Positions 52,605 to 58,985 of a stretch of DNA of 64,000 bases are shown here, piece by piece (within the stretch, counting starts at the first letter, position 1; every line of letters begins with the position of its first letter). The notes under the pieces were generated by a model, which was not told the DNA's origin, searched no databases, and was given only the letters and a program-made list of their open reading frames with translations. A program made the translations under genes and the position numbers. The DNA is from Pycnococcus provasolii (lineage: Eukaryota; Chlorophyta; Pseudoscourfieldiophyceae; Pseudoscourfieldiales; Pycnococcaceae), in the NCBI GenBank assembly GCA_938743325.2, contig OW568879.1, forward strand, positions 496,001 through 560,000, given 5' to 3'.

Positions 52605-53612
52605 ATGCGTCCACCTCCGAAGAAGAAACTCAAGCAGCAAGCTGTCACGGCGCCGCCTCCACCGCCACCGGAACAGTCCTTGCCGGCGCAGACGCACGTC
52701 GATGCGAGTGCCGCCTCGATTGGTGCGTCTCATGGAGACTCATTGCGAGCAGCGCGTCTTCCCATGGATGTTTGGCGCAACGTCATGGGCAGGCTACCGG
52801 ACCTAAGCCTCGTCGTAATGGCGTGGCTCGGTGACTCGACCGCGCGCGCGGCGGCGAAGATGGAGATGAAGGAGCGGCGTGCGTCGTCGTCCACAGCGTC
52901 CACCTCGGAGGACAACAAGAGTTTGGTGCACAAGCTTGCGAATCGTACTTGCGATGGTTGTGGAAAGATACACAGCTCAAAGGAAGGGACGTACCTCGTT
53001 CATTTCGACCGCGTTGGCCTCGACGACGAGGAGGCGCCGACAAAGATGGTGCGATTTTGCAAAGCTGGGCGCTACGAGCACGGCGACACGGGTAACCCGC
53101 TATGCCGTCTTCGATACAAGACAGAGGCGGCGAAGCTGTACGGGTTTGGAGTTGTGAAGGATGTGCTAGACGACGTGCAGGCGATAGATGTGGTTTATAA
53201 GGCAAATCCACACTACAAAAGCGCCGCGCCTTCCACTCTAATCAACGACGCGATGGGCCAACTTCTAGGTGACCAGTGGGTGGCTTGTGGTCGACGCGTG
53301 GCCAACATGAACACCACAGGTCTCGTCGCCGAACGGCAGGCGATGTGTCGTCGGATACGACGACATCGTCTCATCGTGAATGCACTTGAGTATGAGTATG
53401 AGTCGCACCCAAGCACCGCCGCCTATCGAAAAGAGAAGGAGGAGGAGAAGAAAGAGAAGGAGGACAAGAAGCGTGCGGCGGCGGGCAAACGCCTCGCGCA
53501 CGTCAAGGCGCAGGTGGAAAGTGGCGAGCTCAGTCTCGAGGATGGCACGCTCGAAGATCCACTGCTTTTGAAGAGGCTCGAGGGTGTATCATACAGCCGC
53601 GCGCTTGAGGTG

Positions 53613-53622
53613 GCCAAGCAAC
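53613..53622 (+). repeat. Target-site duplication, left copy
   Basis: GCCAAGCAAC, identical to 58578-58587. Ten bp is within the 8-11 bp range known for Mutator-like elements. GCCAAGC also occurs elsewhere in this host gene (about 58602), so a chance match of part of it is possible, but reading-frame continuity supports a true duplication. Confidence 0.75.
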
Positions 53623-53631
53623 GGAATAATT

Positions 53632-53645
53632 CACTAAACCCCGCT
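53632..53645 (+). repeat. MULE left inverted motif
   Basis: CACTAAACCCCGCT, followed by ATTTTGGGGATTCGACCCCG. The right end read on the minus strand gives CACTAAACCCCGCTTTTTTT, then GGCACTCGACCCCGCT. Confidence 0.85.
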
Positions 53646-54087
53646 ATTTTGGGGATTCGACCCCGTTGGGCTTGGCGGGGTCATTTTCCTAAAACGGGCC
53701 CTCAGGTCCACGGGGTCAGGCAAGTCGAGGGTCACCACTTTAAGGGAAATGACCCCACCCATAGGCCATCTACTGGGGAATAGAGACACGATGCGTTGTT
53801 ACCTTAAATAGCGGGGTGGGGGCTATTGACGGGGTAGGAAAGGCAAGCAAGTTCCCGCCTTGCCTCACCACGAATCGAAGTAAGTCCCCGTCGGCGCCGC
53901 CTCTCCTCCTCTTAAGACGACGTCCTCCCTTCTCCCTAGGAAGGTAGCCCTTCTTGTTACCTCAAATAGCGGGGTAACAAATAGCGGGGTCCCCTCCCTA
54001 CTACGTGAAACGCGTCAACACAGACACGTCGGTCCGAGTAGGCCGGGGCCGGCCTCGTCTTAACGGAGCTCGCCTTCACTCCTCATC

Positions 54088-54806
54088 CTTAAGGGAACTC
54101 GCTCGCCTTCGCTGGCTGCTGGCTGCTGCTGCTGCCTCAACCGGCCACGTCTGCCGAAGAAGAGGAGCTGCTTCATCCTCATCCTCAAGGGAACTCGCTC
54201 GCCTTCGCTGGCTGCTGGCTGCTGCTGCTGCCTCAACCGGCCACGTCTGCCGAAGAAGAGGAGCTGCTTCATCCTCATCCTCAAGGGAACTCGCTCGCCT
54301 TCGCTGGCTGCTGGCTGCTGCTGCTGCCTCAACCGGCCACGTCTGCCGAAGAAGAGGAGCTGCTTCATCCTCATCCTCAAGGGAACTCGCTCGCCTTCGC
54401 TGGCTGCTGGCTGCTGCTGCCTCAACCGGCCACGTCTGCCGAAGAAGAGGAGCTGCTTCATCCTCAACACGTCTGCCGAAGAAGAGGAGCTGCTTCATCC
54501 TCAACACGTCTGCCGAAGAAGAGGAGCTGCTTCATCCTCAAGAACATCGCTGGCTGCTGCTGCTGCCTCAACCGGCCACGTCTGCCGAAGAAGAGGAGCT
54601 GCTTCATCCTCAACACGTCTGCCGAAGAAGAGGAGCTGCTTCATCCTCAAGAACATCGCTGGCTGCGGCTGCTGCTGCTGCCTCAACCGGCCACGTCTGC
54701 CGAAGAAGAGGAGCTGCTTCATCCTCAACACGTCTGCCGAAGAAGAGGAGCTGCTTCATCCTCATCCTCAAGGGAACTCGCTCGCCTTCGCTGGCTGCTG
54801 GCTGCT
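54088..54806. repeat. Minisatellite with 96-bp unit inside the MULE
   Basis: Units starting CTCGCTCGCCTTCGCTGGCT recur at 54098, 54194, 54290 and 54386, exactly 96 bp apart. Each ends with the block CACGTCTGCCGAAGAAGAGG and AGCTGCTTCATCCTCA. After 54460 the long unit breaks into shorter units built mostly from that block (about 36 bp and 90 bp), ending with one more CTCGCTCGCC unit near 54778. Because 96 is a multiple of three, both strands stay open for long stretches. No ATG or protein-like feature supports a gene. Confidence 0.9.
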
Positions 54807-55154
54807 TGACAGAGCTCGTGATATGTTGAATGCATCTCCTCCTGAGCATGACGAAAGTGTTGTCGAACGTTATGACGAGCCGCGTTCCGTGGTATACACA
54901 TGCCACGGGAGTGCGCATCCTCAACGTTTAAACGCAGCAGTGCACACATGGTTGACATGCGACGGCCCGCTGAATGCTGAGAATGAGAATGCTGAGAATG
55001 AGATGTAGTCTCAGCAAGAACAAGATGCCAAGATTTCTACGCGTTCGCGTGATAAGGGGGGCGGGAGGGAGAGTGTGGGAGGGAGAGTATAACGAAAATA
55101 ATCATGAACAATCATTAACGTCCATACGCCACATCACGCCACAGGTGAAGAACG

Positions 55155-57953
55155 ATGCCTTCCTTCATTACGACACCAACAAAGAAAGAGTTGGAAGTTT
55201 TGAAGACTTTGAGGGACAATGGGTTGATCGACGAGGCAACGTGGGCTAAACTCGTAAGTTCTGCGGTCTTTCCGGATCCGCATCCGGATCCGGATGTTAA
55301 CGCAGCGCATCAAGGATCGCAGAAAACCGTGACGAAATGCATGTCGCCTCGAGGTGGATCTGGATGTGGATCTGGCGGAGGAGCTCGAGGAGGTGGAGAT
55401 GCTGCTGCTTTGGCTGGAGCTGCTGGAGCTGGAGCTGCACCCTCCAAGGAAGAAGACACATTCCTCCTGCCTGGAGGAGGGGGCATATGTGGAGCGGTTA
55501 ACCCTAACGCTGGAGCTGCTGGAGCTGGAGCTGCTGGAGCTGCTGGAGGAGGAGGTGGTGGAGGAGCTGGTGGAGAAGAAGAAGCTCGAGAAGGTGGAGC
55601 TGGAGAAGGCTGTCCAAGCACGTCAACGGCACGTGCTCTTGCTCTTGAAGAACGTGTGTTGCAACGAAGTGCGACGACTCGAAACATCATAAAATATTCA
55701 GATATTCCGATATTCAGCCATGTTGAGGAAGACAAAGTCAAAAGATTATGTACAGCACCCTCCGGACAAGGACAATACACGTGGGAATCTGGAGGTGGAA
55801 AGGGGAGGCACACGCGATATCGGTGTCGCACACACGAGGATTGCAACTCCTACAGAATCATAAAGTTCGTGCCGGACGAAGGCAAATGGGTTTGTCGCCA
55901 AGGCGGCACGCACACGTGCACACCTGCAGAAGTGAAAAGAGGGATCGCGAATCCGAGCTTGAAAGAAAAGGTGGTAAGCGCCGCCATGGGTGGTAACAAG
56001 CCGGCGAGGATAGTGTGCGGTCTCGAGACAGAGTTGAAAAATGTGGGCCAAGTCTTACCGGAAGGCTTCCAAAAACAGGTGCAAAATGTGAAGCGGGGTC
56101 TGAAGCGAAAGAACCGCGGCCCTACGCTCATAGAATCGGTTGCAGACCTCGAGGAATGGGCGACTTCTCATCTGCTCTACGATAGTGCGGACGCTTCCCG
56201 ATTTGCCGAGATGGCGCCAGAAGGCTTGAGAATGGTAGGCGCTTGTGTTGGTCGTGGTGGTGGTGCTCGTGCTGGTGCTCGTGCGGGTCCTCGTGCTGCC
56301 GCCCTTCCGCTTCCGCCTGCCGCCAATCCGCCCGCCGTTCCGTCCCCCGTTCCGTCTGAATTGCCGATACCCCCTCCACCGCCCCCTCCGGAAGAGCTTG
56401 AAGGCTTGAGAATGCTAGGTACCGCTCGTGCGACTCGTGCGAATCGTGCGAATCGTGCGACTCGAGCGACTCGTGCGCCTTCGCCTGAGTTGCCGGTGGC
56501 AAACCTCCCGGCGTCGGCGCCAGTCTTGACATTGACACAAGGCTTCAGGCGGAACGGCGAATTCGGATTGGCGGTGCCCCCTCCACCGCCCCCTCCACCG
56601 CCCCCTCCGGAAGAGTTCGAAAAGCTTCATGAAGTATTCAAACAGTACGACGACTCTGAGTTGTTCACGTTGGGTCGGCGAGATAAGGAGTCAGAAATTG
56701 GGGTCATAGTGTCTTGCAAGCAGCTCCTACGGAACGTAGAGGCAATGCACCGAGGCAACCTTCCGCAACATGTGGTTTGCGATGGGACATTCAAATTAGT
56801 TTTCGGGGAGTGGGTTATATATGTGGTTGGGTGCATAGCGCACAGAATGAACGGATCGACGCTAGTGCATACATTTCGCCCGTTTCTGTTTCATATGACG
56901 AAAACCGAGAACGGTCCAGCAATTGAATTCGTTTTAACTACGTTGAAGGCTGTCGCGAAAGATATCTTTGGTTTTGAATTGAAACCGATTGTCGTCATTG
57001 GTGATCGAAGTCTAAGTTTGTACAACGCTATCCAAAAGGTGTTCCCGTCGGCGAGATGGGTGAATTGTTATGTCCACTTGAGCAGAAAAGGGAAAACTGA
57101 ATATTTGAAAAAGTATCACGTGAAGGCAGAGAATAAGGACGAAGTATGCGCGGCGATTGATCTTTTGCATCGTTGCTCAACGTTGGAAATGTTTAGATGC
57201 TTCATGTCAATAGTTGTCTTGGTATTGGAGCGCCTGGGCGAGAGAGAGTATGCGAAGTGGTTGCGCGAGGAGTACGGTAAGGAGCCCTTCGAATATTGGT
57301 ACGTGACTGCGACTGGAGTGGTGGGGCTAAGATCCGACAACCAAGCCGAAGAGGCTTATAACAAGACAGTGAAGGCGTACAAATGGTTGGGCGGACTCCG
57401 ACAGCCGGCCGACTCCGTCTTGAACGACGCGTTTCCGAGACTCTTCCAAGCAGATGTGCGCGAGCGCGGCGCTCACGTTCGAATGGGGCTAATGCCCACA
57501 CCGGTGGACGCTGCTGAGTCGGTGCATAGGGCGGCTAGCTTAATATCCGTGAAGAAGTTGTATCGCGTCGACAACGACGTGTTGTACATGAACACGAGTT
57601 CATTCGGGGAGTACGCAATGTCTTCACAGCGTGTCAAGAACTTCGAGAACGCACGCGCGGGAAGACTCGACCCCGTAAAAGCATCGAAGCTCTCAATAGC
57701 GGAGCTCACGTGGTTGTACGCATCCGTGCACCGTGTCGCACCAGTTGAAAAGTGCAACGAGGTGGTGTTCGCTCGACGTCCAATGGTGTGCACGTGTCAT
57801 AGGTGCTGGCACATGGAAACGTGCTCGCACTGTGCGAGCTACGAGCACATTGTTTTAAAGGAACGAGATCTCGTTAAGGAGACCGAGCCTCTCCCAAGAA
57901 ACAATCGGGCGGGTGCGCCTAAGAAGAGCAAGGGGGCGTTGAGTAAGCAGTGA
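55155..57953 (+). CDS. MULE transposase
   Basis: 932 residues, one open frame. Residues 60-165 are Gly/Ala-rich low complexity. A FLYWCH/WRKY-GCM1-like zinc-binding region lies at about 205-260 (GRHTRYRCRTHEDCNSYRII; WVCRQGGTHTC), expected to bind the element ends. A Pro-rich middle follows (about 370-490), including runs of nine or more Pro and a repeated EELEGLRMLG/EEFEKLHEV motif. The DDE catalytic domain shows D in VVCDGTFKLVFGEWVIYVVG (about 541), D in IVVIGDRSLSLYNAIQKVFP (about 615) and E in RSDNQAEEAYNKTVK (about 731). A SWIM zinc finger is near 876 (VCTCHRCWHMETCSHC). Domain order matches MULE transposases of plants and algae. All key residues are visible, so it looks capable of function. 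Confidence 0.9.
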   Translation: MPSFITTPTKKELEVLKTLRDNGLIDEATWAKLVSSAVFPDPHPDPDVNAAHQGSQKTVTKCMSPRGGSGCGSGGGARGGGDAAALAGAAGAGAAPSKEEDTFLLPGGGGICGAVNPNAGAAGAGAAGAAGGGGGGGAGGEEEAREGGAGEGCPSTSTARALALEERVLQRSATTRNIIKYSDIPIFSHVEEDKVKRLCTAPSGQGQYTWESGGGKGRHTRYRCRTHEDCNSYRIIKFVPDEGKWVCRQGGTHTCTPAEVKRGIANPSLKEKVVSAAMGGNKPARIVCGLETELKNVGQVLPEGFQKQVQNVKRGLKRKNRGPTLIESVADLEEWATSHLLYDSADASRFAEMAPEGLRMVGACVGRGGGARAGARAGPRAAALPLPPAANPPAVPSPVPSELPIPPPPPPPEELEGLRMLGTARATRANRANRATRATRAPSPELPVANLPASAPVLTLTQGFRRNGEFGLAVPPPPPPPPPPPEEFEKLHEVFKQYDDSELFTLGRRDKESEIGVIVSCKQLLRNVEAMHRGNLPQHVVCDGTFKLVFGEWVIYVVGCIAHRMNGSTLVHTFRPFLFHMTKTENGPAIEFVLTTLKAVAKDIFGFELKPIVVIGDRSLSLYNAIQKVFPSARWVNCYVHLSRKGKTEYLKKYHVKAENKDEVCAAIDLLHRCSTLEMFRCFMSIVVLVLERLGEREYAKWLREEYGKEPFEYWYVTATGVVGLRSDNQAEEAYNKTVKAYKWLGGLRQPADSVLNDAFPRLFQADVRERGAHVRMGLMPTPVDAAESVHRAASLISVKKLYRVDNDVLYMNTSSFGEYAMSSQRVKNFENARAGRLDPVKASKLSIAELTWLYASVHRVAPVEKCNEVVFARRPMVCTCHRCWHMETCSHCASYEHIVLKERDLVKETEPLPRNNRAGAPKKSKGALSKQ

Positions 57954-58363
57954 TTGTAATGGAATTCACGTTTGGTTTGATGTATCACATATGTGCGACC
58001 CGTAAGATCAGATGTCAAAGAACATGTGATAGCTACTCATAGTGGCGAACTCTTAGTGGCGATAGTACGTAAGTGCCTATTTGTACCGGGACACCCGTCT
58101 GTCAATTACAAATTTGAATTCAGCACTCGAAAGTTTCGATAGTTCAAGGTTCGATTCTTGAAGAAACCAATCTCTTCCCAATCTCTTCACAAAATTAGTA
58201 CTGACAACTCCTTCACCAAATACACACACGTCATAAATAAACGAAAAACAAATACATAATACACACACAAACAAATAAAACAATACAAAGAACAGGTAGC
58301 TAAACAGTACTAGTACTACACAGCTCTGTATCACACACTCTGTAAAAACAACTTTTTTTTTTC

Positions 58364-58411
58364 GGGTTAGGGTTAGGGTTAGGGTTAGGGTTAGGGTTAG
58401 GGTTAGGGTTA
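58364..58411 (+). repeat. Interstitial telomere-type array (GGGTTA)8 inside the MULE
   Basis: Eight perfect GGGTTA units following TTTTTTTTTTTC and ending at ACTGCAGCGGGG. It lies 166 bp inside the right edge of the element, same strand orientation as the arrays at 52378 and 59201. Confidence 0.93.
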
Positions 58412-58560
58412 CTGCAGCGGGGACCCCGCTAAAGGTTAGCGGGGTCCCCGCTAACCCCGCTAAAGCTGAGCGGGGTCCCCGCTAACCCCGCTCACCCCGC
58501 TCCAGCGGGGTCCAAGACACCCCACTCCACTTAGCGGGGTCGAGTGCCAAAAAAAGCGGG
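58412..58560. repeat. Subterminal AGCGGGGT clusters and hairpins at the MULE right end
   Basis: At least nine AGCGGGG/CCCCGCT motifs in 150 bp in both orientations, forming short perfect hairpins such as AGCGGGGTCCCCGCT (twice, each followed by AACCCCGCT). The left end has related motifs at about 53680, 53805-53832 and 53965-53990 (AAATAGCGGGGT). Clustered subterminal motifs are often transposase-binding sites; that use is inference. Confidence 0.8.
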
Positions 58561-58577
58561 GTTTAGTGCTCCCACCC

Positions 58578-58587
58578 GCCAAGCAAC
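58578..58587 (+). repeat. Target-site duplication, right copy
   Basis: GCCAAGCAAC, identical to 53613-53622 and in the same codon phase of the host frame. Confidence 0.75.
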
Positions 58588-58636
58588 TGTCTGCTGAGCG
58601 TCAAGCCAAGCGTGAGGCAATCGCACGAGAGGAAGC

Positions 58637-58744
58637 AGCAACGGCACGTCGTGCCGCGGCTGAGTCACGTCGTGCTGCGGCTGCAAGCGAAGCAACGGCA
58701 CGTCGTGCCGCGGCTGAGTCACGTCGTGCTGCGGCTGCAAGCGA
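58637..58744 (+). repeat. Exact 54-bp tandem duplication in the host gene
   Basis: Copies at 58637-58690 and 58691-58744 are identical and begin AGCAACGGCACGTCGTGCCG. Each encodes 18 residues (TARRAAAESRRAAAASEA in phase), so the frame is kept. Confidence 0.9.
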
Positions 58745-58985
58745 AGATAGTCAAGACCCGCGGGATGTGCGCGATTTTCGCGTCTCACTCGCGAAGGAGA
58801 CTGGCTTTTGCGTGTGCATGAACACGCCATCGGTGGTGTGCGCGAATGGAGGGTGCAAGACGTGCTGCAAGGAGTTCCAGGCACGTCACCCGACGTTCAC
58901 GTGTCAACGCCATCCAGTTCGTATGACTACGGGTACCACGCCTAGTGACGCACTATTCGCGTGGTATGAAAGGAACAAGCTGTGA

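Follow-up and report, generated by a model that had tools for sequence, protein, structure and literature searches.

According to one published account, MULE duplications are 8–11 bp long and MULE inverted repeats range from long to absent, with non-TIR MULEs being an accepted group (PMC6446971). The described system closest to the one reported here is Tm1, a Mutator/Foldback MULE of root-knot nematodes, in which asymmetric 7-bp tips lie outside the inverted repeat; the description of Tm1 calls such tips unusual but also records them in other MULEs whose repeats are sub-terminal (PMC3169594). Here we describe an element of the green alga Pycnococcus provasolii that is very probably a complete MULE DNA transposon, and the only one of the copies found in the assembly whose transposase frame is full length. 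None of the titles and abstracts listed in our literature searches dealt with this element. The assembly of P. provasolii CCAP190/2, ucPycProv1.2, is described as 32.2 Mb in 44 chromosomal scaffolds (PMC11130579), and the genome searched in this study comprised 32,333,900 bases in 46 contigs (labelled C1, C2, and so on), with the element on C19.

Results

The element occupies positions 53623–58577 (4955 bp) of the 64-kb window, i.e. the whole stretch of C19 that was analyzed, as read directly from the sequence. It is flanked by a target site duplication, GCCAAGCAAC, whose left copy (53613–53622, forward strand) and right copy (58578–58587, forward strand) agree at 10 out of 10 positions, exactly as an earlier note on this DNA had claimed. 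The 14-bp inverted motif that the same note had pointed out is likewise in place, with CACTAAACCCCGCT at 53632–53645 and its reverse complement at 58555–58568, in both cases exactly 9 bp in from the edge. We found that the inverted repeat is longer than these 14 bp and extends over element bases 10–43 at both ends, with a left arm at 53632–53665 (forward strand; its first 14 bases are CACTAAACCCCGCT exactly) and a right arm at 58535–58568 (reverse strand) that align in register and gap-free, with 30 of 34 positions matching. When the letters of the two 60-bp ends were shuffled 20,000 times, a run of 14 in register never occurred (longest run, 9), and we rejected a chance pairing of motif and duplication because the other copies described below speak against it. 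The repeat is therefore not placed directly inside the duplication, as is usual for MULEs, but sub-terminally, 9 bp in from each edge. The tips outside it, GGAATAATT on the left (53623–53631, forward strand) and GGGTGGGAG on the right (58569–58577, reverse strand, reading inward), match each other at only 2 of 9 positions, namely the first two bases, GG.

Between the two ends lie tandem arrays with units of 96, 37, and 115 bp (54065–54764; Tandem Repeats Finder), whose sequence is also present in copies B and C of the family, followed by the transposase frame (55155–57953, forward strand) and a telomere-type (GGGTTA)8 array (58364–58411, forward strand; 8.0 copies with 100% match in Tandem Repeats Finder) that recurs in copies C, D, and I. 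We considered this last array as a special feature and rejected it, given that such arrays are frequent inside C1 and also occur near copies H, M, and N. Genome-wide, the GGGTTA 24-mer has 1919 forward and 1916 reverse overlapping matches, telomeres included, and on C1, the one contig for which the places were listed, many are away from the contig end. Next to the right edge (58416–58561), the inverted-repeat core CCCCGCT is repeated in both orientations. This motif is found 17 times in the element vs 5 times in the window outside it (59,045 bp), and 12 of the 17 fall within the last 162 bp; the same region could fold on itself, since single-strand DNA folding of 58412–58577 returned a strong fold-back (z = –8.9). 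The right-end array looks like a one-sided set of putative transposase sites.

The 932-residue transposase frame claimed in the earlier note is present, and its three candidate acids occur in DDE order (D543, D617, and E733), with catalytic roles that are predicted. D543 and D617 fall inside the match to the MULE profile (PF10551, residues 541–643), and E733 sits in a QxxExYN stretch that is also kept in a divergent relative (C6:407432); we assign it from this one relative and from what we take to be the usual MULE pattern. Against a cut-off of 27.6, PF10551 scored 24.4 bits in one search, 26.3 bits (E 1e-5) with residues 501–932, and 29.2 bits, above the cut-off, in a six-frame search of the genome, while PF00872 (Transposase_mut) scored 20.0 bits with residues 501–932 (cut-off 21; E 3.5e-4). 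The transposase thus appears to be a borderline match to both profiles, lying around and not clearly above the Pfam cut-off. A CxCx8CxH motif starts at residue 879 near the C-terminus, where the likeness to a SWIM finger was judged by eye only, and an N-terminal Cys/His cluster at about residues 222–255 was labelled a finger in the same way; Pfam profile searches gave no SWIM, FLYWCH, or FAR1 match in the transposase. Zinc fingers of these or other types, such as CCHC, are common among MULEs without being universal. A PDB sequence search gave a best E of 0.045, with matches chiefly in low-complexity parts, and the structure model was uninformative on the fold (mean pLDDT 33).

Among 5.8 billion proteins, a first search with the transposase gave no hit at E 0.001 (7978 scored candidates), and a second with residues 500–932 gave two (7023 scored candidates), both in Pseudoscourfieldia marina. 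These hits, P0001 and P0002, are identical to the transposase at 345 of 348 and 251 of 272 residues, respectively. In both gene models, unrelated sequence is joined to the transposase tail. The name given to P0001 is retrovirus-related Pol polyprotein, and judged by eye this protein starts in a Copia-like way. P. provasolii and P. marina are reported to have identical 18S rRNA (PMC11130579), and taken together with the near-identical P. marina piece, this means that a comparison of strains could date insertions.

To delimit the family, we used the element as a DNA query, which returned 45 genome matches, and we retained those containing one of the element's ends or internal sequence that is unique, setting aside those with simple, tandem, or low-complexity sequence only. 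In this search, which made no use of the tip pattern, homology begins exactly at element base 1 on C17, C19, C6, C29, C10, C24, and C43, and ends exactly at base 4955 on C19, C30, C24, and C5. The 14-mer with at most one mismatch occurs at 16 places in the genome vs 6 for the reversed pattern. Fourteen of these are exact, of which eight carry the left tip, five the right tip (this element counted), and one neither (C7:683005). Searching for tip and 14-mer together, with up to three mismatches, recovered the same eight left and five right ends and nothing for the reversed patterns. The left tip is identical in 7 out of 8 left ends, with one mismatch in the eighth, and the right tip in 4 out of 5 right ends, with two mismatches in the fifth. 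The earlier note had proposed such a genome search for the motif 9 bp from element edges, and had counted a lack of any other copy against its own reading; the search returned the same edges, and the copies found go against that refutation. At the place on C7 (683005–683018), the exact 14-mer is followed by eight T, as in the right ends of the family, and the outer sequence differs. Homology to the element is otherwise limited there to the telomere-type repeat, and the place is perhaps a relic end with another tip, or chance.

Both ends are present in 3 of the 10 end-bearing copies: the window element, copy I on C24 (367 bp, internally deleted, with GTTAGAGTGT on both sides at 10 out of 10 positions), and copy C near the start of C19 (2.4 kb, deleted, with flanks ATAATAAAA and ATAATAAAC matching at 8 out of 9). 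Target site duplications in the 8–11 bp range of MULEs are thus found at the window element and copy I (10 bp each) and, at 8 out of 9, at copy C. The remaining copies have a left end only (five) or a right end only (two), and within about 9 kb of these seven, neither a partner end nor a convincing duplication was found. Two candidate duplications, an exact 10-mer lying 9 kb downstream of copy H and an exact GC-rich 9-mer at copy E, were taken as chance, as neither adjoins anything like a right end. The deletion joints share 1–9 bp (4 in copy D, 1 in F, 2 in C, and 9 in I). Near-identical pieces occur on C30 (364/365), C6 (308/309), and C28 (259/259), and these identities of 99.7–100%, along with the P. 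marina piece of 345/348, would suggest recent activity. Other stretches are less similar (91% on C17, 92% on C10, and 97–98% on C19), which indicates that not all copies are young. In addition, we observed three mosaic loci, on C28 (about 529666–530180), C6, and C30, in which near-identical element pieces are joined together or to unrelated DNA, as if captured during break repair.

We then compared 11 other ends with those of the window element as reference, using up to 243 bp per end. Substitutions were found at 3 of 99 sites in the tips, 0 of 374 in the inverted repeat, and 59 of 1549 further in; the left arm has no substitution in the seven other left ends, and the right arm none in the four other right ends, with one indel in copy C. 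The corresponding Fisher p-values (tip vs repeat, 0.009; tip vs inner, 1.0; repeat vs inner, 5e-6) are nominal, as many of the inner differences go back to common descent and a single divergent copy (K) accounts for two of the three changes in the tips. It is safe to state that each end has its own tip, which is inherited, and that constraint is stronger on the inverted repeat, while free drift of the tips beyond the first GG is at most a possibility. The suggestion in the earlier note that the tips are under little constraint is therefore borne out insofar as they vary more than the repeat, but it has to be set against their end-specificity and inheritance and the one copy behind most of the changes. 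Similarly, the outer 9 bp, which the note had called unusual, are indeed mismatched at 7 of 9 positions, but tips of this kind have already been described in other MULEs, as in Tm1.

The genome also contains a second MULE family. PF10551 has 15 matches genome-wide, 13 of them over the cut-off, and the second family, L071 (read at C6:966300–971300), has four near-identical copies of about 3.03 kb. In the one copy that was read, a 10-bp duplication, GGTGGGCGAG, and a MULE transposase are present as they are here, whereas perfect 67-bp inverted repeats reach the edge instead of lying sub-terminally; hardly any alignment is obtained between the two transposases (30 residues, E 0.016). Since the repeats of L071 reach the edge, offset tips are no rule for the MULEs of this genome. 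The L071 end, GAGAAATGGCCAGATTATAGG, aligns closely with the TIR primer GAGATAATTGCCATTATAGAC given for maize MuDR (PMC2563033), and none of 20,000 shuffles aligned as well. It may represent terminal sequence that a prasinophyte and maize have both retained, with one known element compared. We rejected a likeness of our element to the same primer (PMC2563033): for the left end, 1474 of 20,000 shuffles were as good, and for the left tip alone, which matches MuDR at 7 of 9 positions by eye, 2149 of 100,000.

Alternative explanations

One could argue that the 14-bp motif marks the true ends and that the 9-bp tips and the 10-bp repeat are flanking DNA, brought together by chance or by an older event. 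A typical MULE duplication is described as lying directly outside the inverted repeat (PMC6446971), the left and right tips do not match each other, and 1 of the 14 exact 14-mers (C7:683005) has neither tip. However, the tips are common to copies in unrelated flanks, the alignment search halts at these outer edges as well, and precisely there copy I is flanked by a 10-bp duplication of its own, so that we regard this explanation as extremely improbable. A different question is whether the element is a dead relic, its transposase frame having stayed open simply because it inserted recently. The full-length transposase is found only at 53623–58577, the other four of the five protein matches in the genome being pieces; all further copies that were found carry deletions or breaks, and much of the transposase protein is low-complexity sequence. 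On the other hand, the full 932-aa frame is there and is the only one of the three forward frames with a positive codon-usage score, the acids with predicted catalytic roles are present, and the duplication is perfect. We consider a dead relic quite possible, although somewhat short of probable.

The third alternative concerns the flanks. When these are joined with one copy of GCCAAGCAAC, they encode 471 residues and a stop, the left part of the frame covering 52605–53622 (339 codons plus 1 base, forward strand) and the right part 58588–58985 up to the stop codon (forward strand); in place, the left part runs on into the element to a stop at 53783. A paralogue of this frame, 57% identical over residues 58–235, is located at C34:96912–97400. 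The element is inserted into an open frame, and insertion into a host gene is plausible from the coding score of the left part. It might instead be that the flanks are separate genes or partly non-coding, with no gene interrupted and the 472-codon frame a product of chance. The continuity across the insertion stressed in the earlier note is real, in that the joined frame exists, but it is weak evidence alone because insert and repeat together (4965 bp) are divisible by 3 and because, at 17% of random positions in the window, at least 134 codons pass without a stop, the actual right-hand run being 132. Moreover, in a codon-usage test the right half has a weak score (–10.7), another frame is ahead in its first 53 codons (2.8 vs –8.9), and the match on C34, the only other one to the joined frame in the genome, stops short of the junction. 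Against this, the left half is strongly coding right up to the insertion (+120, scored from 52614; +48 for the last 80 codons), and across the whole right half the joined frame outscores the other five. Separate genes or partly non-coding flanks are rather unlikely in our view, and a position of the element inside a host gene is probable from the clearly coding left half, though less so from the weakly scoring right half.

Discussion

Our findings support the proposal of the earlier note that this is a complete MULE flanked by a 10-bp target duplication, in that its edges are shared by other copies, copy I has a duplication of its own, and the protein matches the MULE and Transposase_mut profiles. 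For such an element, we propose that the transposase would bind the 34-bp subterminal inverted repeats, and perhaps also the core-motif array by the right end. Cuts would fall 9 bp outside the repeat, at edges starting with GG at both ends, and insertion would take place at staggered cuts 10 bp apart that host repair turns into the duplication. In maize, work on Mutator has led to a model in which incomplete gap repair gives rise to deleted copies. The deleted copies seen here could be products of the same process, and those with two ends could be mobilized by the transposase of the whole copy. A more speculative idea, and in our judgment a rather improbable one, is that the two ends are functionally different: the end-specific tip and the one-sided motif and telomere-type array might let the transposase load first on one of the ends and place its cuts a set distance away from the 34-bp repeat, in which case the tip would hardly matter except for GG.

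With this element, a prasinophyte green alga gains a MULE family for which several copies agree on the edges. A source element that is potentially complete, together with a 367-bp derivative, hints at which end sequences may be sufficient for movement, and the end-specific tips would make it possible to ask whether distance or sequence determines where MULE transposases cut.

The element belongs to the same class of MULE transposases as maize MuDR, and its duplication to the same 8–11 bp class (PMC6446971). In its sub-terminal inverted repeat it resembles Jittery and Phantom-type MULEs, which we know through their description in the Tm1 paper (PMC3169594), and the shared, end-specific, non-inverted outer tips expected of such sub-TIR MULEs are found here at eight left and five right ends. 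Likened by description and not by sequence, it is closest to Tm1 as portrayed in PMC3169594: both have short asymmetric motifs outside the inverted repeat that differ at each end, one transposase-bearing copy with many shorter derivatives, and repeated motifs near the ends. In contrast, the tips and duplications of Tm1 are 7 and 9 bp long, compared with 9 and 10 bp here, and Tm1 has a FLYWCH finger that finds no counterpart in our profile matches (PMC3169594). Given that tips of the Tm1 type had already been described, this element is a new MULE family of a known kind, the one with sub-terminal repeats.
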